IMG/VR virus record: IMGVR_UViG_3300046819_000114 | Location: 1 to 36,423 of that record | DNA from: a virus | Direction: 5' to 3' (one strand) | DNA: 36,423 nt | Shown here: positions 1,830-23,506 of the stretch, one piece after another | How the letters are laid out: the number at the start of each line of letters is the position of its first letter | Position numbering within the stretch: position 1 is the stretch's first letter | Made by a program: the position numbers and the translations under genes | The notes under the pieces: model-generated | What the model was told of the DNA's origin: nothing | What the model saw: the letters and a program-made list of their open reading frames with translations, nothing else | Databases searched by the model: none

Positions 1830-2990
1830 TTATCCCCAATTGGCGTATTGTTTTGTTTTCTTTAAACGATCGTCAAGACCGTGTGTACCGCCATTCACTC
1901 TCTTCGAGATTTGAGTGATCACTGCATCGGTAACACCTCTGTCTGCAATCGCAAGCAATCCATTCTTACGGAAGAACCATAATGCAGACTCAAAAGCCAA
2001 CTCACCAACCACAAGATCAGGATTCGTCAAGACGTCAGGACGTTTTACGTCAGCGGCAAAAGCTGTATAGTTGTCTTTCCCGGTCAGTTGGATCGGGCCT
2101 CGACCACGCCACTTCCAACCATCTCCAGAGGCTTCTGATCCGTTCCCCATCCGATTAGCATACACTTTGTTAGCAATCTTTTCTGGCTTACGAGCATAAC
2201 CTGCGGTCGAAGCGATCGTAGGAAAATACTTCTTGAAGATTCCGTTGAGCCCTTTATCAGAGTAGTTCAGGTTCTCAGAGAACACCTTAAACCCGCCTGA
2301 CTCGTGCGCACACTGACCGAAGAAGTGCGCTGCTTGATTGTTTGTCAGCTTGAAGTAATCTCTTGCTGCCTTATATGTGCCAGGTCCCCATTTACCATCA
2401 GCGGTTACAGCTAATGGACCAAGACCAGATACCTTTGAAGGAGCAGCCGGAGACGACTGAGGAGCAGCTTGCTTTGGCGCTGTGGCAATTGAAGGAGCCC
2501 CAGCAGCCCTTGTCGTCGATGGATCAAAGTCAGCGACCGTTGTATAGACGGTTCCGCCTGCCTTCGACTTCGTAGCGATCATACGCACTTTGCGGTTGCC
2601 TCCACCCTTCTTAATCGAAGCGTGAACCCATCCTGAATTCTTATCGCCCTTTGTATAGAACTCAAGAATCACTTGGTCAAATTCGAGATTGTCTCCAATC
2701 CAATCAGCAACGGTTTTGTTATCGACACCCTTTACTTCAAAGTCAATTGCCTGACCGTTGACGTGTTGAGATGTCTTCGAACCACCGACTGCCTTATTGA
2801 CAAGCGGAGCCCGATACGAAGAGTTGACTGTGACTGGTCCAAACTTAGCACGAACTGGTTCGAGAATCTTTTCGCAGCAGTAGCGCATATTCTCGATATG
2901 TTCTGGGGTTGGAGTATTGCTAAGTCCAAGTCTTTTTGCAGTAGGAGAAACAATCATTTCTGCCAAAGAAAAATGTTCAGTTAGTTTCAT
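1830..2990 (-). CDS. Two-domain endolysin: M15 peptidase plus GH19 chitinase-like muramidase
   Basis: The 386-residue protein combines two cell-wall hydrolase domains. Residues about 1-125 form an M15-type zinc carboxypeptidase domain: SQHVNGQAIDFEV gives His76 and Asp83, and WVHAS gives His123. An Ala/Pro-rich linker follows (about 155-190). Residues about 195-386 are a glycoside hydrolase 19-like domain with CAHESGGF (catalytic Glu230), a second Glu239 in FSENLNYS, and WRGRGPIQLTGKDNY. The first domain cuts peptide cross-links and the second cuts glycan strands. No signal peptide is seen, so release should depend on a holin. It is the only minus-strand gene here and lies about 25 kb from the spanin cassette. 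Confidence 0.93.
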   Translation of the reverse strand: MKLTEHFSLAEMIVSPTAKRLGLSNTPTPEHIENMRYCCEKILEPVRAKFGPVTVNSSYRAPLVNKAVGGSKTSQHVNGQAIDFEVKGVDNKTVADWIGDNLEFDQVILEFYTKGDKNSGWVHASIKKGGGNRKVRMIATKSKAGGTVYTTVADFDPSTTRAAGAPSIATAPKQAAPQSSPAAPSKVSGLGPLAVTADGKWGPGTYKAARDYFKLTNNQAAHFFGQCAHESGGFKVFSENLNYSDKGLNGIFKKYFPTIASTAGYARKPEKIANKVYANRMGNGSEASGDGWKWRGRGPIQLTGKDNYTAFAADVKRPDVLTNPDLVVGELAFESALWFFRKNGLLAIADRGVTDAVITQISKRVNGGTHGLDDRLKKTKQYANWG

Positions 2991-5574: not shown

Positions 5575-5771
5575 TGGTAACAGAATACAATGGTAATGGA
5601 AAATATGCAAACCGTCGAGCTGAATTGCATAAGCAAAGCTATGATGATTATTACTATGTCAAGTTTTTTGAAAATGATGAGCATATTGAAACGCGAGTTT
5701 TAAAAGAAAAAACATTACGATACGCAGAAGATTGCGCTGAAAACTGGACAATAGGAGTTATTAATGGCTAA
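5571..5771 (+). CDS. Small hypothetical protein, 66 aa
   Basis: The ATG at 5571 overlaps the polymerase stop (ATGA), with TGGAGG at 5555-5560 as ribosome binding site; a second ATG follows at 5574. The product is rich in Tyr, Glu and Asp (SYDDYYYVKFFENDEHIETRVL), with no signal peptide, membrane helix or motif I recognise. Its end overlaps the next gene by eight bases. Its place between polymerase and uvsX suggests early or middle expression. Confidence 0.6.
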   Translation: MMVTEYNGNGKYANRRAELHKQSYDDYYYVKFFENDEHIETRVLKEKTLRYAEDCAENWTIGVING

Positions 5772-5994
5772 ACTAGATATAGACTTAGACTTTGATTTTG
5801 GTTTCACGACTTCATCTGAAGAAGAAATCAAACAAGAAGGCAACGATAAGGCACGTGCAATGTACGATGCAATTATGCCTCTACTTGCAAATTTAAATAA
5901 AGATGCAGACAAAAACCCGATCATCAACTGGCCTAATCGTGCCGAGAAGATCGATCTCTTCATTACTAAATTAAATAAGATTCTTGCATCTTAA
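5764..5994 (+). CDS. Small acidic conserved protein, 76 aa
   Basis: The product begins with a strongly acidic stretch (MAKLDIDLDFDFGFTT) followed by a mainly helical region ending in NWPNRAEKIDLFITKLNKILAS. A short protein of this shape next to uvsX is, as I recall, common in T4-like phages, but its role is unknown. GGAG at 5754-5757 precedes the start. The uvsX promoter element begins directly after the stop. Confidence 0.65.
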   Translation: MAKLDIDLDFDFGFTTSSEEEIKQEGNDKARAMYDAIMPLLANLNKDADKNPIINWPNRAEKIDLFITKLNKILAS

Positions 5995-9592: not shown

Positions 9593-10227
9593 CTCGATTT
9601 GTAAACAGGTTCGTAATCTCTGACCATCATCTTGGTCATACGAATTCATGGGAAAAGTTCAAGCGCGAAGACGGTAGTCCTCTGCGTCCGTTCACCTCAA
9701 CTGAAGAGATGAACGAGACCATGATTGAGCGTCACAATGCCAAAGTGAAAGAGCAGGACACTGTCTACTTTCTTGGCGACGTGGTAATCAATAAGAAGTA
9801 TCTCGAACTGGTAAAGCGTATGAACGGTCGTAAGATCCTCATCCGCGGTAACCACGACATCTTCAAGGACGAAGAGTATCGTGAAGTTGGTTTCCAACAG
9901 ATCCACGGTGTTCGTGTATTTGTGGATAAGTTCATTCTGAGCCATATTCCTCTACATCCTGACTGCGTGTCTGAGAGATTCCGTGTCAACGTACACGGTC
10001 ATCTACATGCTAATCAGGTGATGAGAACAAGAACCAACATGGTTCATGGCTATATGACTGGTCTCGTTACTGAACCAGATCCTCAATATCTCTGCGTATG
10101 CGTAGAGCAAACCGACTTCACACCTCTTCACTTTGATGAGGTAGAAGAAAGAATCCAACAACGTTGGGATTATGCAGGATATACTGGTTCTGTGAAAGCA
10201 TGGGGAAATGGAAGTGGACCTAATTAA
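9589..10227 (+). CDS. Calcineurin-like metallophosphoesterase
   Basis: The 212-residue protein shows the whole metallophosphoesterase signature in order: SDHHLGH (Asp12, His14), LGDVV (Asp64), RGNHD (Asn88, His89), LSHIPLH (His119) and VHGHLH (His138, His140). The family binds two metal ions and cleaves phosphoesters; phage members of this size may act on nucleotides, cyclic nucleotides or nucleic acid ends, which the sequence does not decide. It starts with GTG, overlapping the stop of the small upstream gene (GTGA). The stop is immediately followed by the ATG of the small membrane protein at 10228. Confidence 0.9.
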   Translation: MTRFVNRFVISDHHLGHTNSWEKFKREDGSPLRPFTSTEEMNETMIERHNAKVKEQDTVYFLGDVVINKKYLELVKRMNGRKILIRGNHDIFKDEEYREVGFQQIHGVRVFVDKFILSHIPLHPDCVSERFRVNVHGHLHANQVMRTRTNMVHGYMTGLVTEPDPQYLCVCVEQTDFTPLHFDEVEERIQQRWDYAGYTGSVKAWGNGSGPN

Positions 10228-10404
10228 ATGAGTAAAATGATTATTGCTTTCTTGTCATTGTTTGTCATCTTTTTTACAAGCATTGATATTTTCCGTCGGC
10301 TGACCGGAAAAGAAAAGATAAAAATGTTGGCCGTGGCCGGTTATTCTTTTGGAGTCACCGTTCTAGTAATGTTATTTGTTGCGTCTATTGTTATTTTGTT
10401 TTAA
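10228..10404 (+). CDS. Small two-helix membrane protein, 58 aa
   Basis: The ATG follows the phosphoesterase stop with no gap. The product has two hydrophobic segments, MIIAFLSLFVIFFTSIDIF (4-22) and VTVLVMLFVASIVILF (43-58), joined by a short basic loop (RRLTGKEKIK), typical of a helical hairpin in the inner membrane. It lies just before an SPFH lipoprotein gene, so it may act with it in the membrane; a superinfection-exclusion or holin-like role is possible but unproven. Confidence 0.62.
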   Translation: MSKMIIAFLSLFVIFFTSIDIFRRLTGKEKIKMLAVAGYSFGVTVLVMLFVASIVILF

Positions 10405-10418
10405 AGGAAAAGTGAATT

Positions 10419-11216
10419 ATGAATCGTATTGCTAAGATTGCCGTTCTTGCTGGTCTGATGGCCACTGTTTCGGCTTGTACTCGAATTGAAACTGGTGAAG
10501 TTGGTGTTCGTCGGACATTTAACAAGACTATTGAAACCACTGAACTGATGCCTGGTTCTGTTAATCAGACCATCTTTGGTGATGTATTGACGTTCCCAAC
10601 GAAGGACGTTCAGGTTGACGTAGCTGACTTGACTCCACTCGCTTCGGATAACTCGACAGTTGCCGACTTTGATATGGCTGTCATCTACTCGATTAATCCT
10701 GGTTCAGTTGCCGAACTCTACATCGAGAAGAACCGTGGCTTCCATGCTGATACTGAGGAAGGTGATACTCTTCTGATGTACAACTACATTCGTCAGCTTG
10801 GTCGTAATGCCGCTTATAAGGTTGCACGTAAGTACGAGTCGTTGAAGATGGCTGATAATCGTGCTGAAATGGAACAGCTGATTCGTCAGGAAGTTGTAGC
10901 GCAGCTTGCTTCTGAGAAGCTCGACGGCGCAATTTCCATCTCGCAGGTTCTTGTTCGTCAGGTAAAGCCTGCTGCGAACATCGTAGCCTCGGCTAATGCG
11001 CTTGTTCAAGCTCAGAATGCTGAAAAGCAAAAGCTGGTTGAAGTTCGTACCGCTAAGTTGGAAGCCGAGCGTATTGCCGCTCTGAACGCCAATGCTGGTG
11101 CAACCAAGTACATGGAAGCAACTGCTCTCGTGACGATCGCCGAAGCTGTCAAGGAAGGTAAGGTTTCTACCATTATCGTTCCTTACGACTTTAAAGGTAT
11201 CGTCAACGTAAAGTAA
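10419..11216 (+). CDS. SPFH/prohibitin-domain lipoprotein
   Basis: The 265-residue protein starts with a lipoprotein signal peptide (MNRIAKIAVLAGLMATVSAC), with the lipobox VSAC placing the acylated cysteine at residue 20. The rest matches the SPFH (stomatin/prohibitin/flotillin) layout: GEVGVRRTFNKTIET near the start, TKDVQVDVADLTPLASDNSTVADFDMAVIYSI, then a long helical region rich in Ala and Glu (NALVQAQNAEKQKLVEVRTAKLEAERIAALNANAG). Family members form ring- or cage-like assemblies on membranes and control proteases or lipid domains. AAAGGAAAAG before the start is the ribosome binding site. The lipid anchor implies a periplasmic or outer-membrane location. Confidence 0.85.
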   Translation: MNRIAKIAVLAGLMATVSACTRIETGEVGVRRTFNKTIETTELMPGSVNQTIFGDVLTFPTKDVQVDVADLTPLASDNSTVADFDMAVIYSINPGSVAELYIEKNRGFHADTEEGDTLLMYNYIRQLGRNAAYKVARKYESLKMADNRAEMEQLIRQEVVAQLASEKLDGAISISQVLVRQVKPAANIVASANALVQAQNAEKQKLVEVRTAKLEAERIAALNANAGATKYMEATALVTIAEAVKEGKVSTIIVPYDFKGIVNVK

Positions 11217-11219
11217 GCA

Positions 11220-11248
11220 TGTACAATTAATTGGTGGTAGTGTATACC
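11220..11248 (+). promoter_or_regulatory. Promoter-like element before the gene at 11271
   Basis: TGTACA (11220-11225), 17 bases, TATACC (11243-11248). Its spacer contains the left arm of a perfect 15-base inverted repeat. Transcription would begin near 11255, just at the ribosome binding site (GGAGG, 11256-11260). Confidence 0.55.
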
Positions 11249-11312
11249 AGAATCAGGAGGAAATTATATTATGACAATGCATCTTCTTGGTCCTGCTTAC
11301 ACTACCACCAAT
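11230..11312. repeat. Perfect 15-base inverted repeat around promoter, ribosome binding site and start codon
   Basis: ATTGGTGGTAGTGTA (11230-11244) is exactly complementary to TACACTACCACCAAT (11298-11312). The 53 bases between hold most of the -10 box, GGAGG and the ATG at 11271; the right arm lies in codons 10-14 of the gene. A readthrough RNA from the upstream lipoprotein gene could form the stem; an RNA from the local promoter would lack the left arm. Confidence 0.75.
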
Positions 11313-11690
11313 CATAGCAAGCGTAAGTCTAAAATGACGACGTCCAAGTATACCAAAATTGGTTTGGCTTGGCTCGAAGACTGTAAGTTCTGCAAACGCA
11401 ATGGCATCAAGCCAAAGACATTCGAAGAATATCAAGCGTATCGTGCAGGCAACTACAAGCCTAAACTTCGTGGCACTCCGATGCCTGATTACAACGTATC
11501 AGATCATCGTAAAAAGTACCCATCTCAGAACGAGATCGGTGTACACTACGCAAAGAATTCCTCTTACGAGAAAGAAAAGCTTGCCGTCAGCGGCAATTAT
11601 ATCATCGGCCAAGCCTATAATAAAGGCGGACTTGTTGTCCTTTCCAAGTCTGAAGCGGCCGATCCGGCAACTGGTAAGAGACGCGGTTGA
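11271..11690 (+). CDS. Hypothetical protein, 139 aa
   Basis: The start at 11271 follows GGAGG (11256-11260) after ten bases; the next ATG (11277) and one at 11334 (MTTSKYTKIG) are alternatives. The product is basic, with KIGLAWLEDCKFCKRNGIKPKTFEEYQAYRAG, where CKFCKRNG gives a CxxC pair, and ends in ADPATGKRRG. A single CxxC is not enough to call a zinc site. I do not recognise the family. The first 21 residues could be a leader created by the inverted-repeat region rather than part of the folded protein. Confidence 0.65.
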   Translation: MTMHLLGPAYTTTNHSKRKSKMTTSKYTKIGLAWLEDCKFCKRNGIKPKTFEEYQAYRAGNYKPKLRGTPMPDYNVSDHRKKYPSQNEIGVHYAKNSSYEKEKLAVSGNYIIGQAYNKGGLVVLSKSEAADPATGKRRG

Positions 11691-11848
11691 GCATCGTGTT
11701 CCTCCTCTCATCGTTGCCGTTCTTGGCGATCTTGGGCTTCTTCCTTTGGGTCGGGTTCAAGGTCGCCAAGATTTTTTTTCGATTTGCCCTCTATGGTTTT
11801 CTTTTTATTATTTTGATTCTTCTCGCTTTAGGGGGTTTACAAAATTAA
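11687..11848 (+). CDS. Possible small two-helix membrane protein, 53 aa, TTG start
   Basis: A TTG at 11687 overlaps the preceding stop (TTGA, like the many ATGA overlaps here); a GTG at 11696 is the alternative. The frame runs 53 codons with hydrophobic segments IVFLLSSLPFLAILGFFLWV and FALYGFLFIILILLALGG around a basic loop (KVAKIFFR). Against it: no ATG, a terminator-like hairpin with a T run lies inside it, and T-rich DNA easily encodes hydrophobic residues by chance. Reading and terminator may exclude each other. Confidence 0.35.
   Translation: MSIVFLLSSLPFLAILGFFLWVGFKVAKIFFRFALYGFLFIILILLALGGLQN
11721..11779 (+). terminator. Possible intrinsic terminator with a long loop
   Basis: TCTTGGCGA (11721-11729) pairs perfectly with TCGCCAAGA (11763-11771), with a 33-base loop, and is followed by eight Ts (11772-11779, after the A ending the stem). 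The long loop is unusual, though part of it can pair further. It lies between the gene ending at 11690 and the promoter-like element at 11836, where a terminator would be expected. Confidence 0.5.
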
Positions 11849-11864
11849 TTTTTTGTAGTAAGGT
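11836..11864 (+). promoter_or_regulatory. Promoter-like element before the SWIM zinc-finger gene
   Basis: TTTACA (11836-11841), 17 bases, TAAGGT (11859-11864). Sequence from the -10 onward (TAAGGTGAACCTATGAT) is nearly the same as at 9152 (TAAGGTGGACCTATAAT). The ATG at 11871 falls at the predicted transcription start, so the message may be leaderless; the AGGTG at 11861 would serve as ribosome binding site only for a readthrough RNA. Confidence 0.45.
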
Positions 11865-11870
11865 GAACCT

Positions 11871-12104
11871 ATGATTGACCATACACCAACTTATTCCGCC
11901 TTTCGTACACCGCTCGCAATGGCTGGTATCAATTTTCACGACCATCATTTGGTCGGTCTGACATGGCCATATATAAACTGTAAAGGCAAACAGTATCACG
12001 TCACGATGCTTGATCGAGGTTGGGTGTGTGACTGTCCTGGTTTTAATTTCTATAATAAGTGTAAGCACATTACACAAGTGCACGAAAAGGTGATAGCAGA
12101 ATGA
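11871..12104 (+). CDS. Small SWIM-type zinc finger protein, 77 aa
   Basis: The C-terminal half holds WVCDCPGFNFYNKCKHITQVHEK, which fits the SWIM zinc finger pattern CxC-x(n)-CxH (Cys54, Cys56, Cys65, His67 by approximate count). SWIM fingers mediate DNA or protein contact and occur in recombination mediators and transposases; a free-standing 77-residue form in a phage is probably a small DNA-binding or adaptor protein. It overlaps the next gene, also a zinc protein, by four bases (ATGA at 12101), so two metal-binding proteins are made as a pair. Confidence 0.72.
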   Translation: MIDHTPTYSAFRTPLAMAGINFHDHHLVGLTWPYINCKGKQYHVTMLDRGWVCDCPGFNFYNKCKHITQVHEKVIAE

Positions 12105-12496
12105 TTATTCAGAACGCAGTAAATTGCTTGTCATGTGGAGACCTTATCGTCTCAAAGCATCGTCATGACTTTGTGACGTGCACGTGTGGTGCTGTCTCGG
12201 TCGATGGTGGCCAAGAGTATCTTCGTCGCGTAGGCGACTTTGCTAATTCAGTCGACTTATCTTGGTCGTTGCCAGATAAGTTGTATTTCGATTGTGCTGA
12301 TGCTGCTGGCCTTGCGATGGACACTGGAAGAAATACCAAAGGCATTGCCAATGCAGTGATGCGTACTCTTCGTGAAGCTGGTAAGATCATTGCAGATCAT
12401 GAACAAAGAATTCTAGCTCATAATCCTCGTATGGATGAGATTATGGTCGAAGAAGCCGATGGCACCATCAATCGTTATAAGAAAGTTGTAGAATGA
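12101..12496 (+). CDS. Zinc-ribbon protein, DUF7695-like, 131 aa
   Basis: The N-terminal 40 residues form a short zinc ribbon: NCLSCGDLIVSKHRHDFVTCTCGAVSVDGG, with CxxC and CxC pairs. This pattern is shared with a family of small phage and bacterial proteins I know as DUF7695, of unknown function. The remaining 90 residues are helical, with no motif I can name. The stop overlaps the beta-ketoacyl synthase start (ATGA at 12493), so it is co-translated with that enzyme. Confidence 0.7.
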   Translation: MIIQNAVNCLSCGDLIVSKHRHDFVTCTCGAVSVDGGQEYLRRVGDFANSVDLSWSLPDKLYFDCADAAGLAMDTGRNTKGIANAVMRTLREAGKIIADHEQRILAHNPRMDEIMVEEADGTINRYKKVVE

Positions 12497-13602
12497 AGGA
12501 AGCATGTATCGTCGGCTTTGGAATGATCGACGCCTTAGGCGATAATCCCATCGATTGCTGGAAGAATATGCTTAATGATCGAGACTTCCATAAACCTATT
12601 GAACCTCACGTCCATGCCGGCCACGATCTAAAAGTAAAAACTGCTTTTTATCCAACCATCGATATTGACGAGGAAGTGATGCCTCGCACTGTACATTATG
12701 GTATGCACGCAGTCGAGCAAGCTTTGCATATGGCAAATCTGCCACATTCTTCAAATGTCGGAGTCATTTTCTCGACTTTGACTGGTGGAAAATCTTCAAA
12801 AACAAAGGCGGACGCAGAAGGCAGAAAACAAAAGCCTAAGCAAAGCCTTCGCTGCACGATGGATTATCTTTGTAGCCAAATCTCTATTAAGTATGGATAT
12901 ACTGGCATTAATACCATGGTGTATTCTGCTTGCGCTACTGGTTTGGTAAGCATCGAATATGCTATGCGAATGCTTGATGAGTATGACTACGTGATCGTGG
13001 GCGGTTCTGATGCAGGCGTCAACTATATTGATTTATTGTTCTTCTCTCAAATTAAAGCGATCGGCACGAAGTCGATGCCTTTCGATAAAAATCGCGATGG
13101 CTTTATTATGGGCGAAGGTGCAGGATGCATCATTCTACAGTCACGAGAGAAAGCTGAAGCGATGGGTTCGAAGGTTTATGCTCGCATCACTGGAGTTGCT
13201 AATGCTTCAGATGCTCATGATCCGACTGCACCGAGCGGTGCAGGTGCATGGGATTGTTTAGATCAGTTGGATCTTGAAGGCGTAGACTCGGTTAATTCAC
13301 ATGGAACGAGTACTCCACGCGGTGATATCGTAGAATATGACGTGGTTCGTGATTTTACTGATGCACCGATCTATTCCAATAAAGGAAAAATTGGACATAC
13401 TTTCGCTGCGGCAGGTGTACTTGAAACGATTTACAGTGTACTGTCTATTCAGAATGGTGTGATTCCTCATACCGCTGGTTGTCAAGACACTGATATGGAT
13501 GTAGTGACAGAGAATATCGAGACTGATGTCAAGAAGGTTCTTGTCAATTCATTTGGATTTGGTGGTAAGTGTTGTTCAATTATTGTTGAAAAGGAAAAGT
13601 AA
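12493..13602 (+). CDS. Beta-ketoacyl-ACP synthase (KAS I/II, FabF/FabB-like)
   Basis: The 369-residue protein has the complete Cys-His-His site of the condensing enzymes: SACATGL (Cys147), NSHGTSTPRGD (His270) and KGKIGHTFAAAG (Lys297, His302). Other family marks are PFDKNRDGFIMGEGAG (197-211), DAHDPTAPSGAG and the glycine-rich C-terminal NSFGFGG. KAS I/II enzymes condense malonyl-ACP with acyl-ACP to lengthen fatty acids. It is about 40 residues shorter than E. coli FabF, mostly between the N-terminal strand and the active-site Cys. No acyl carrier protein or other fatty acid gene is visible here, so host ACP would be needed. It lies in an operon starting with two zinc-finger genes and ending with an SGNH hydrolase. 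Polyketide-type or nodulation-type acyl synthesis is an alternative. Confidence 0.92.
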   Translation: MKEACIVGFGMIDALGDNPIDCWKNMLNDRDFHKPIEPHVHAGHDLKVKTAFYPTIDIDEEVMPRTVHYGMHAVEQALHMANLPHSSNVGVIFSTLTGGKSSKTKADAEGRKQKPKQSLRCTMDYLCSQISIKYGYTGINTMVYSACATGLVSIEYAMRMLDEYDYVIVGGSDAGVNYIDLLFFSQIKAIGTKSMPFDKNRDGFIMGEGAGCIILQSREKAEAMGSKVYARITGVANASDAHDPTAPSGAGAWDCLDQLDLEGVDSVNSHGTSTPRGDIVEYDVVRDFTDAPIYSNKGKIGHTFAAAGVLETIYSVLSIQNGVIPHTAGCQDTDMDVVTENIETDVKKVLVNSFGFGGKCCSIIVEKEK

Positions 13603-13603
13603 A

Positions 13604-13849
13604 ATGTCTTCTGGATATACTATAGAACTCGATTGGGAAACTGTAGACCACGTCGTGGTCGGTCAACTGCGTAATACATGGGAAGCTCTAAAGGGCAACC
13701 TCGGCAATGGCGACTGGGTTTTTGTCTGGGGTGATCAAGCTGCCGATGATGCCGAAATTCAAAAGCGCATCGACGCGCTCGAGCTTCTTCTCGCGTGGTA
13801 CTCCACTCCTGACGAGCTTGTAGAAATGGGACTCAAAGAAGGTGCCTAA
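13604..13849 (+). CDS. Conserved small protein, 81 aa
   Basis: The start at 13604 (MSSGYTIELDWETVDHVVVGQLRNTW) follows the synthase stop at once, with AAAAGGAAAAG as ribosome binding site; upstream in-frame ATG codons lie inside the synthase. The layout (DHVVVGQLRNTWEALK, then a charged helix DDAEIQKRIDALELLLAWYSTPDEL) resembles a short family seen in other T4-like phages, function unknown. It overlaps the next GTG start by eight bases. Confidence 0.65.
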   Translation: MSSGYTIELDWETVDHVVVGQLRNTWEALKGNLGNGDWVFVWGDQAADDAEIQKRIDALELLLAWYSTPDELVEMGLKEGA

Positions 13850-14114: not shown

Positions 14115-14364
14115 AGTATATACGATTAAGCTTATGTCGGGCGAAGAGCTCATCGCTCGCGTCAAGCAAGAAGGTGGTGTCACCGAACTGTTGAAGCCCC
14201 GTACAGTTGGTATGGGACCTCAAGGTTTTGCTATGATGCCATGGATGATGTCAGCTCCTGATAATAACGTTGTAATCTCTGACACCGTCATCGTCGGTGC
14301 GACTGAAACCAGCCAGCAAGTTGCAACCCAATATCTGAAACAAGTAACAGGGATACAAGTCTAA
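14101..14364 (+). CDS. Small protein with a possible Sm-like fold, 87 aa
   Basis: The segment YTIKLMSGEELIARVKQEGGVTELLKPRTVGM has the strand-turn-strand pattern G-x-E-L-x-x-x-V seen in Sm/LSm-type small barrels. The later part is Met-rich (GPQGFAMMPWMMSAPDNNVVISDTVIVGA). Similar short proteins occur in T4-like cyanophages. If the fold is right it could bind RNA or act as an assembly factor, but this is inference from strand pattern alone. The stop overlaps the next ATG by one base. Confidence 0.55.
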   Translation: MEQNKVYTIKLMSGEELIARVKQEGGVTELLKPRTVGMGPQGFAMMPWMMSAPDNNVVISDTVIVGATETSQQVATQYLKQVTGIQV

Positions 14365-14780
14365 TGTTAGAATGTCTGATTATGGGCGACTCGATCGCCG
14401 TTGGAACGAAGATGTTTGCTCCGAAAGAATGTGTATCATATTCGAAGGGCGGATATAACACATGGCAGTGGAATAAGAAGTGGGGTAAGACTCCGCTTGA
14501 AGCCAAGACAATCGTAATCAGCCTCGGAACAAACGATCATATCGGCGTTGATACGAAAAAAGAGTTGACAAAAATTAGAACTCGTGTTAAGGTAGGCAAT
14601 GTAGTATGGATTATGCCTCCTTGTAACAAAGGCTTTTGCAAGCCTAAAGTGAATGCCATAGTAAAAAGCATCGCTGTAAGTTACGGAGATCGTATCATTG
14701 CTACATCGTATGTTCAACCTGATGATATCCATCCGTCGTGGCGTGGATATAAAGATCTTGTAAAGAAAGCTGGAATATGA
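14364..14780 (+). CDS. SGNH/GDSL-family hydrolase
   Basis: The 138-residue protein shows the hallmarks of SGNH hydrolases: MGDSIAVG (nucleophile Ser10), LGTND (block III Asn) and DDIHPSWRGY (Asp and His of block V). The block II glycine is probably in the KGGYNTWQW stretch. The family hydrolyses esters and thioesters of acyl chains or acetylated sugars. At 138 residues it is short but keeps all blocks. Being in the same overlapping run as the beta-ketoacyl synthase, it may act on acyl chains; deacetylation of a surface polysaccharide is the main alternative. It has no signal peptide, so it works in the cytoplasm. Confidence 0.8.
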   Translation: MLECLIMGDSIAVGTKMFAPKECVSYSKGGYNTWQWNKKWGKTPLEAKTIVISLGTNDHIGVDTKKELTKIRTRVKVGNVVWIMPPCNKGFCKPKVNAIVKSIAVSYGDRIIATSYVQPDDIHPSWRGYKDLVKKAGI

Positions 14781-22776: not shown

Positions 22777-23069
22777 TACGGTTTAAAAAATTTCTAGAAG
22801 AAGCTCGTGGAGAAGATTCGAAAGGTCACTTCATCGCCACTGAGAAGGGTGCAGGTATGACAGCGAAGGGCGTAAAAGCCTATCGTGCCAAGAATCCTGG
22901 ATCCAACCTTCAGACAGCTGTCACTGGTAAAGTAAAGCCAGGATCAAAAGCCGCAGGCAGACGTAAGTCATTCTGTGCTCGTATGAGTGGCGTCAAAGGT
23001 CCGATGAAAGATGAAAAAGGTAGACCGACTCGCAAGGCGATGTCGCTTCGTAGATGGAAGTGTAACTAA
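22773..23069 (+). CDS. Small basic protein, DUF6321-like, 98 aa
   Basis: The protein reads KGHFIATEKGAGMTAKGVKAYRAKNPGSNLQTAVTGKVKPGSKAAGRRKSFCARMSGVKGPMKDEKGRPTRKAMSLRRWKCN. The core GAGxTAKGVKxYRxxNPGSxLxTAVT and RRKSFCARMSG are typical of a small phage family I know as DUF6321. The function is unknown; high basicity and two Cys (FCARM and WKCN) suggest nucleic acid contact. It is coupled to the large protein before it and to the Dps-like gene after it. Confidence 0.8.
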   Translation: MIRFKKFLEEARGEDSKGHFIATEKGAGMTAKGVKAYRAKNPGSNLQTAVTGKVKPGSKAAGRRKSFCARMSGVKGPMKDEKGRPTRKAMSLRRWKCN

Positions 23070-23506
23070 TGGAAGAACTCATTCAGCAGATGAAAGAACT
23101 GCTAGCCGATACCTTTGCGTTTCGGTTAAAGACACAGTATTACCACTGGAATATTGAAGGTCCTGACTTTGCTCAGTATCATAAGTTTCTTGGAAAACTT
23201 TACGAAGAGATTGACAGTGCTGTCGACGAGACTGCCGAAAAGATTCGTAGTTTGAATTCTTATGCACCAGGTTCTTTTCAAAGATACCTCGAGCTTGCAA
23301 CTATTCAATGCGATGATAATATTATTCCGGCTGTAGAAATGCTCGATCGAGTAAAGATAGATAATGATGTACTTCGAAACAAATTAAAACAAGTAAGAAA
23401 TAAGGCCGAAACTTCAGGCGAATTCGGCTTAGTGAATTTTCTAGAAGGTCGTCTAGATGCACATGATAAACATGCCTGGATGTTAAAAGCACTTACAAAA
23501 AGATAA
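23069..23506 (+). CDS. dps: Dps-like DNA-protecting ferritin
   Basis: The 145-residue four-helix protein has the Dps ferroxidase signature: KTQYYHWNIEGPDFAQYHKFLGKLYEEIDSAVDETAEKIRSL gives His26, Asp53 and Glu57 in the spacing H...D...E used between Dps subunits, with the typical YHWNxxGPxF start. Dps forms twelve-subunit shells that oxidise iron with hydrogen peroxide and protect DNA. No long basic tail is visible, so DNA binding may be weak. Its place among late virion genes, with no promoter of its own, suggests a role in the virion or late protection of phage DNA. The start shares one base with the preceding stop. Confidence 0.9.
   Translation: MEELIQQMKELLADTFAFRLKTQYYHWNIEGPDFAQYHKFLGKLYEEIDSAVDETAEKIRSLNSYAPGSFQRYLELATIQCDDNIIPAVEMLDRVKIDNDVLRNKLKQVRNKAETSGEFGLVNFLEGRLDAHDKHAWMLKALTKR

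Follow-up and report, generated by a model that had tools for sequence, protein, structure and literature searches.

Fatty acid desaturases are the best known lipid genes of phages. Desaturase AMGs were reported by Roitman et al. (2018, as cited in PMC8224337), and vFADs have been described in Arctic viruses (PMC7300359). In the parts of these sources considered here, the cyanophage and Arctic viral desaturases, together with fabF in roseobacter prophages, represent the nearest literature to a phage beta-ketoacyl-ACP synthase (KAS) (PMC8224337, PMC7300359); fabF was annotated in predicted prophage regions with a host-like fabG-acpP-fabF order (PMC8224337), and the term 'ketoacyl' is absent from PMC7300359. 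No description of a phage KAS of the type reported below was found in the open-licence literature searched. With regard to cellular enzymes, gating of E. coli FabF involves the GFGG loop, Asp265 and Asn404, the last of which follows the loop and is conserved in KAS I and II, and ACP docking involves K65/R68/K69 (region 1) and R127/K128/R206 (region 2) (PMC7138838).

Here, we analyzed a linear virus record or fragment from IMG/VR, whose 36,423 nucleotides are hereafter called the window. It encodes a T4-type PolB that matched S-SM2 at 49.8% (cyanophages have the nearest PolBs, at ∼50%), as well as UvsX, DnaB, primase, ThyX and NrdA. Host hints from PolB and another conserved protein reached only the cyanophage/pelagiphage/Methylophilales T4 group. 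The carrier of the KAS gene is an aquatic T4-like phage. Other genes in the window include a lysin-like protein with Peptidase M15_3 and GH19 chitinase domains (1830-2990, minus strand, opposite to the other genes), a Dps/ferritin-like protein, judged by eye (23069-23506), and a conserved phage protein (14777-15343; phrog_624, weak Pyr_excise PF03013) that is found near the KAS in the window clade and in L045.

The KAS gene (12493-13602, plus strand) starts with ATG, has no internal stop and encodes 369 amino acids. Both halves of the protein scored well above the Pfam gathering threshold of 20.8 bits (PF00109, 101.2 bits; PF02801, 66.5 bits), far beyond chance. Alignment to E. coli FabF/FabB confirmed the catalytic residues listed in the preliminary description: Cys147 (C163; codon 12931-12933), the nucleophile, which is invariant in all phage rows, His270 (H303; codon 13300-13302), Lys297 (K335) and His302 (H340), the last two delimiting the KGKIGH stretch (13381-13398). 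The signature given there as PFDKxRDGFxMGEGAG is also present, in the form PFDKNRDGFIMGEGAG. Among solved structures, an AlphaFold (AF2) model of the protein (pLDDT 93.7, pTM 0.95) matched FabF and FabB best (Z 50-54, rmsd 2.0-2.2, ∼367 residues), and superposition on FabF (Z 54, rmsd 2.0, 367 residues) indicated a thiolase-type KAS fold. Across diverse phages, the Cys/His/Lys/His set is invariant, and so are the equivalents of the gating Phe400 and Asp265. Since dN/dS ranged from 0.04 to 0.14 among members of the window clade, the gene is under purifying selection. The earlier impression of a functional-looking gene holds for an intact and selected reading frame, and it is very likely that the product would be a catalytically competent, elongating ketosynthase.

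The gate and the carrier-docking surface showed departures from FabF. The window KAS keeps the GFGG motif (G355-F356-G357-G358, including the gating Phe; codons of GFGGKC, residues 355-360 in gating loop 1, at 13555-13572; loop role from PMC7138838) and the Asp265 equivalent (D240), and has Cys360 at the Asn404 position. At this position, 53 of 54 phage KAS have Cys and one has Ser, versus Asn in all 77 cellular KAS checked. The clade signature comprises K-x-K-I-G-H in 54/54 phage sequences and GFGG-K-C in 53/54 (K-S in the remaining one); the cellular counterpart is GFGG-T-N in 77/77, a set drawn by an NSFGFGG plus K/T pattern or a second pattern, in which other cellular variants are perhaps under-sampled. 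The second residue after GFGG, Asn in all cellular enzymes checked and Cys in nearly all phage ones, offers a natural experiment in ketosynthase gating. As for docking, the basic residues of region 2 are retained (R111, K112 and K188 for R127, K128 and R206), and region 1 is deleted in the window clade. The change of Asn404 to Cys and the loss of docking region 1 suggest that the carrier or substrate preference may differ from that of FabF.

The same departures could also indicate a non-elongating enzyme that drains fatty acid synthesis in the host or rewires it, acting for example as a malonyl-ACP decarboxylase or as a competitor by which lipid growth of the host is brought to a stop. The KAS often occurs without a phage ACP or desaturase, and T4-type phages frequently redirect host metabolism. 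However, decarboxylase-type ketosynthases (KSQ, chain length factor) have the nucleophile Cys replaced, whereas the phage proteins retain this Cys and the Lys/His set without exception, and the KAS is associated with desaturases, as described below. We consider such a function unlikely. The preliminary description had named a tree position in a group lacking condensing activity as a refutation; in the tree built here, the protein fell into a virus-only clade of its own, and it keeps every condensing residue.

In this tree, a long-stemmed branch supported at 100/100 divided the window KAS and 30 phage relatives from 26 cellular KAS (FabF, FabB, NodE-like, actinomycete and haloarchaeal). A total of 54 distinct relatives were collected from IMG/VR across metagenomes, the close ones at 83-97% identity and the distant ones at 38-70%, on contigs of up to 333 kb. 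None of the 54 was found in deposited phage genomes, where the best matches (∼30%) were mostly of cellular type and several lay on bacterial-looking contigs; no PHROGs family matched the KAS. Thus, the claim that condensing enzymes are rare in phages stands for deposited genomes but not for metagenomic viruses.

Recent capture from a host was rejected, as no close cellular KAS was found in plasmids (at most 33% identity), in 398 Pseudomonadota genomes (where profile A1 reached 212 bits at best, compared with 539-587 bits for phage KAS with the related profile A3) or among the matches listed in a genome scan (at most ∼33% over the full length and 39% over a C-terminal segment); in-depth profiling covered Pseudomonadota, and a nearer cellular relative is possible. 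A first genome scan had given no match. Cellular contamination of the contig was ruled out by its T4-type genes and by the 54 distinct viral sequences. A more general form of this explanation is that a host FabF gene was caught by chance, or came from contamination, and has no viral role. Phages are known to pick up host genes, the KAS is accessory, and, according to the part of the source considered, three prophages predicted in roseobacters contain fab genes (PMC8224337). Against these points, the clade confined to viruses, with its long stem and distinct signature, the low dN/dS, the T4-type core genes that share the contig with the KAS and the spread of distinct sequences across metagenomes leave this explanation with very little probability. 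On the basis of sequence comparison, the protein belongs to a KAS family that has so far turned up in viruses only and lies outside all sampled cellular KAS.

The genomic context indicated that the gene occupies a variable slot. Upstream of it, a SWIM finger gene (11871-12104, plus strand; PF04434, 18.7 bits, slightly below the threshold of 19.6) and a gene with a zinc-ribbon-like N-terminus (12101-12496, plus strand; PF24749, 78.8 bits), which forms the left border, overlap by their start and stop codons, and the latter overlaps the KAS start in the same way. The right border is a small ORF (13604-13849, plus strand) that begins one base past the KAS stop. Given the overlap with the upstream stop and this close spacing, the KAS looks translationally coupled. 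An SGNH/GDSL-like hydrolase gene (PF13472, 28.5 bits, under the 32.9 cut-off) follows at 14364-14780 on the same strand. Among UvsX-found relatives with enough downstream sequence, 5 of 21 had the KAS. In a KAS-less sibling (L242, UvsX 96%), the site is cleanly empty, with the upstream gene abutting the counterpart of the 13604 ORF, and different small ORFs fill the slot in other KAS-less siblings. Because the SGNH gene and flanking genes persist in siblings such as L242, the apparent operon is positional and the KAS is accessory cargo. The proposed functional operon with the hydrolase and two zinc-finger genes was therefore not supported, and neither was retained as a functional partner, both remaining in KAS-less siblings.

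A different association was revealed when desaturases were surveyed. They were present on 23 of 39 KAS contigs of at least 20 kb, compared with 1 of 17 KAS-less relatives of the window with the same minimum length (Fisher p 2.6e-4, indicative only, as the records are interrelated and the control group is narrow). KAS contigs were searched with PF00487, PF03405 or an L045 desaturase protein, and controls with PF00487 only; PF00487 misses L045-type desaturases, which a tblastn-type search recovered. Four contigs (G030, G034, G032 and G036) carry a desaturase ∼1.1 kb downstream of the KAS on the same strand. In L182 and L180, overlapping genes run from the KAS through a small ORF and a 265-269 aa protein to a desaturase, whose distance from the KAS is matched in G030 and G036. 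Elsewhere the desaturase lies upstream, by 3-5 kb in G004, G011, G029, G031, G033 and the L044-L061 group and by a few kb in the L032, L169, L176, L181, L191 and L045 groups. These varied arrangements support the association. In G003, whose KAS is 91% identical to that of the window, a desaturase is located elsewhere in its 129 kb; none was found in the 36 kb window fragment, and the large KAS contigs G022 (333 kb) and G044 (119 kb) yielded neither desaturase nor ACP. All eight His-box histidines are conserved in the membrane desaturases, which weakly match acyl-CoA desaturases of known structure; scans with single desaturase proteins gave few matches. Tandem paralogous membrane desaturases were observed in L181 (3134-4688) and L191 (997-2629); in L191, a gene for a class III aminotransferase comes next.

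As noted in the preliminary description, no ACP is visible in the window, where PF00550 was absent. Among the KAS contigs searched with PF00550, an ACP was seen only in L057, and a dedicated phage ACP partner was rejected on this basis. In L057, an ACP (5651-5908), the KAS (9956-11173) and a soluble acyl-ACP desaturase (11160-12086; PF03405, E 3.7e-52) all fall in a 7 kb stretch with 2OG oxygenases and PhyH on its flanks, so that the trio nearly resembles a mini acyl-modifying cluster. Genes resembling 2OG-Fe(II) oxygenases directly adjoin the KAS in L032/L072, L196 and L057, and weakly PF05118-like copies lie beside it in the L045 group. In L045 (7864-17117), the KAS is preceded by three paralogous oxygenase-like genes and followed by genes for an AdoMet decarboxylase and, judged by eye, an amidinotransferase-like protein, as well as by a set of five paralogues, the first of them PF05118-like. 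In one lineage, comprising L181 (7366-8001), L184 (2651-3247) and L186 (1466-2098), the gene that overlaps or adjoins the start of the KAS encodes a lipoprotein-like product in which a lipobox was apparent by eye. In the window, 1.3 kb upstream of the KAS, positions 10419-11216 encode a protein with an SPFH/Band 7 domain and an apparent lipobox (lipoprotein family phrog_200).

The oxygenase-like genes beside the KAS in several lineages keep a special acyl product possible. Such a product, rather than bulk membrane lipid, would be an acyl group destined for a lipoprotein of the phage, a virion part or a small molecule, with neighbouring oxygenases carrying out a later hydroxylation or desaturation. 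The lipobox genes next to the KAS, as well as the altered gate and docking region 1, would fit this possibility. On the other hand, an ACP accompanies the KAS in a single contig, the oxygenase and lipoprotein neighbours vary by lineage, and the SPFH lipoprotein is present without the KAS in L242. A dedicated product thus seems somewhat improbable. We view with similar, slightly smaller doubt a broader idea, in which an old virus-only KAS family of T4-type and jumbo aquatic phages, with the altered GFGG-KC gate and altered carrier docking, might act with phage desaturases and oxygenases to make an acyl product foreign to the hosts, which would represent a viral lipid-tailoring pathway and not a copy of a host enzyme.

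Three roles had been offered for the enzyme: reshaping of host membrane lipids, supply of an acyl group for virion or DNA modification, and production of an unknown acyl product. The first appears to be the best, because desaturases accompany the KAS in several phage lineages. Our main reading, to which we assign a probability of about 0.5, is that an elongating KAS would act on host malonyl- and acyl-ACP and, together with a desaturase, remodel membrane acyl chains. During infection, Cys147 would be loaded with acyl groups from host acyl-ACP, and His270/His302 would decarboxylate host malonyl-ACP, giving a beta-ketoacyl-ACP two carbons longer, whose processing would be completed by host reductases and dehydratase. 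In many carriers, the phage desaturase would then introduce double bonds, so that both enzymes together would alter how long and how unsaturated the acyl chains of the host membrane are. We infer the condensing activity, the use of host ACP, the product and the benefit to the phage alike. A role in host membrane lipids is about evenly balanced in our judgement; as relatives often lie beside desaturases, the carriers probably re-tailor these lipids. If this is true, a widespread virus-specific condensing enzyme would work alongside desaturases, and phages would act on fatty acid synthesis itself, beyond finished lipids. The KAS would thus be a concrete candidate enzyme for membrane alteration by phages of aquatic bacteria. 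Its many metagenomic relatives, accessory status and desaturase company extend the first reading of this locus.

Comparison with known systems places the phage enzyme close to FabF in architecture and apart from it in detail. It shares with FabF (KAS II; S. pneumoniae 2rjt, E. coli 1kas) the fold over 367 residues, the catalytic Cys-His-Lys-His, the GFGG loop, Asp265 and the full length in two Pfam halves, whereas it is only ∼27-33% identical, roughly 40 residues shorter, placed in a separate clade (100/100), and distinguished by Lys-Cys after GFGG, by K-x-K-I-G-H and, in the window clade, by the missing docking region 1; its score against the FabF NCBIfam equivalog (224 bits) is below the cut-off of 493.75. 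Similarly, FabB (KAS I, E. coli 1dd8) agrees in fold (Z 50.8) and in catalytic residues but lies on a separate tree branch, and the phage KAS scores 155.9 bits where the cut-off is 630. Another viral entry, the 366-aa KAS-like A0A6J7X0R1 of an uncultured Caudovirales phage (BFVD; automatically annotated 'FabB'), for which no study was found, is only 18% identical over the Foldseek alignment. Judging from its description in the part of the source considered, the roseobacter prophage fabF (PMC8224337) is set apart from the lone, highly divergent KAS of T4-type phages. Finally, the desaturase AMGs of cyanophages and the Arctic vFADs are likewise lipid genes of phages with a presumed effect on host membranes, and the KAS-adjacent desaturases are of the same broad membrane desaturase kind; in the portions of these reports considered, desaturases are described and a phage ketosynthase is unmentioned (PMC8224337, PMC7300359).
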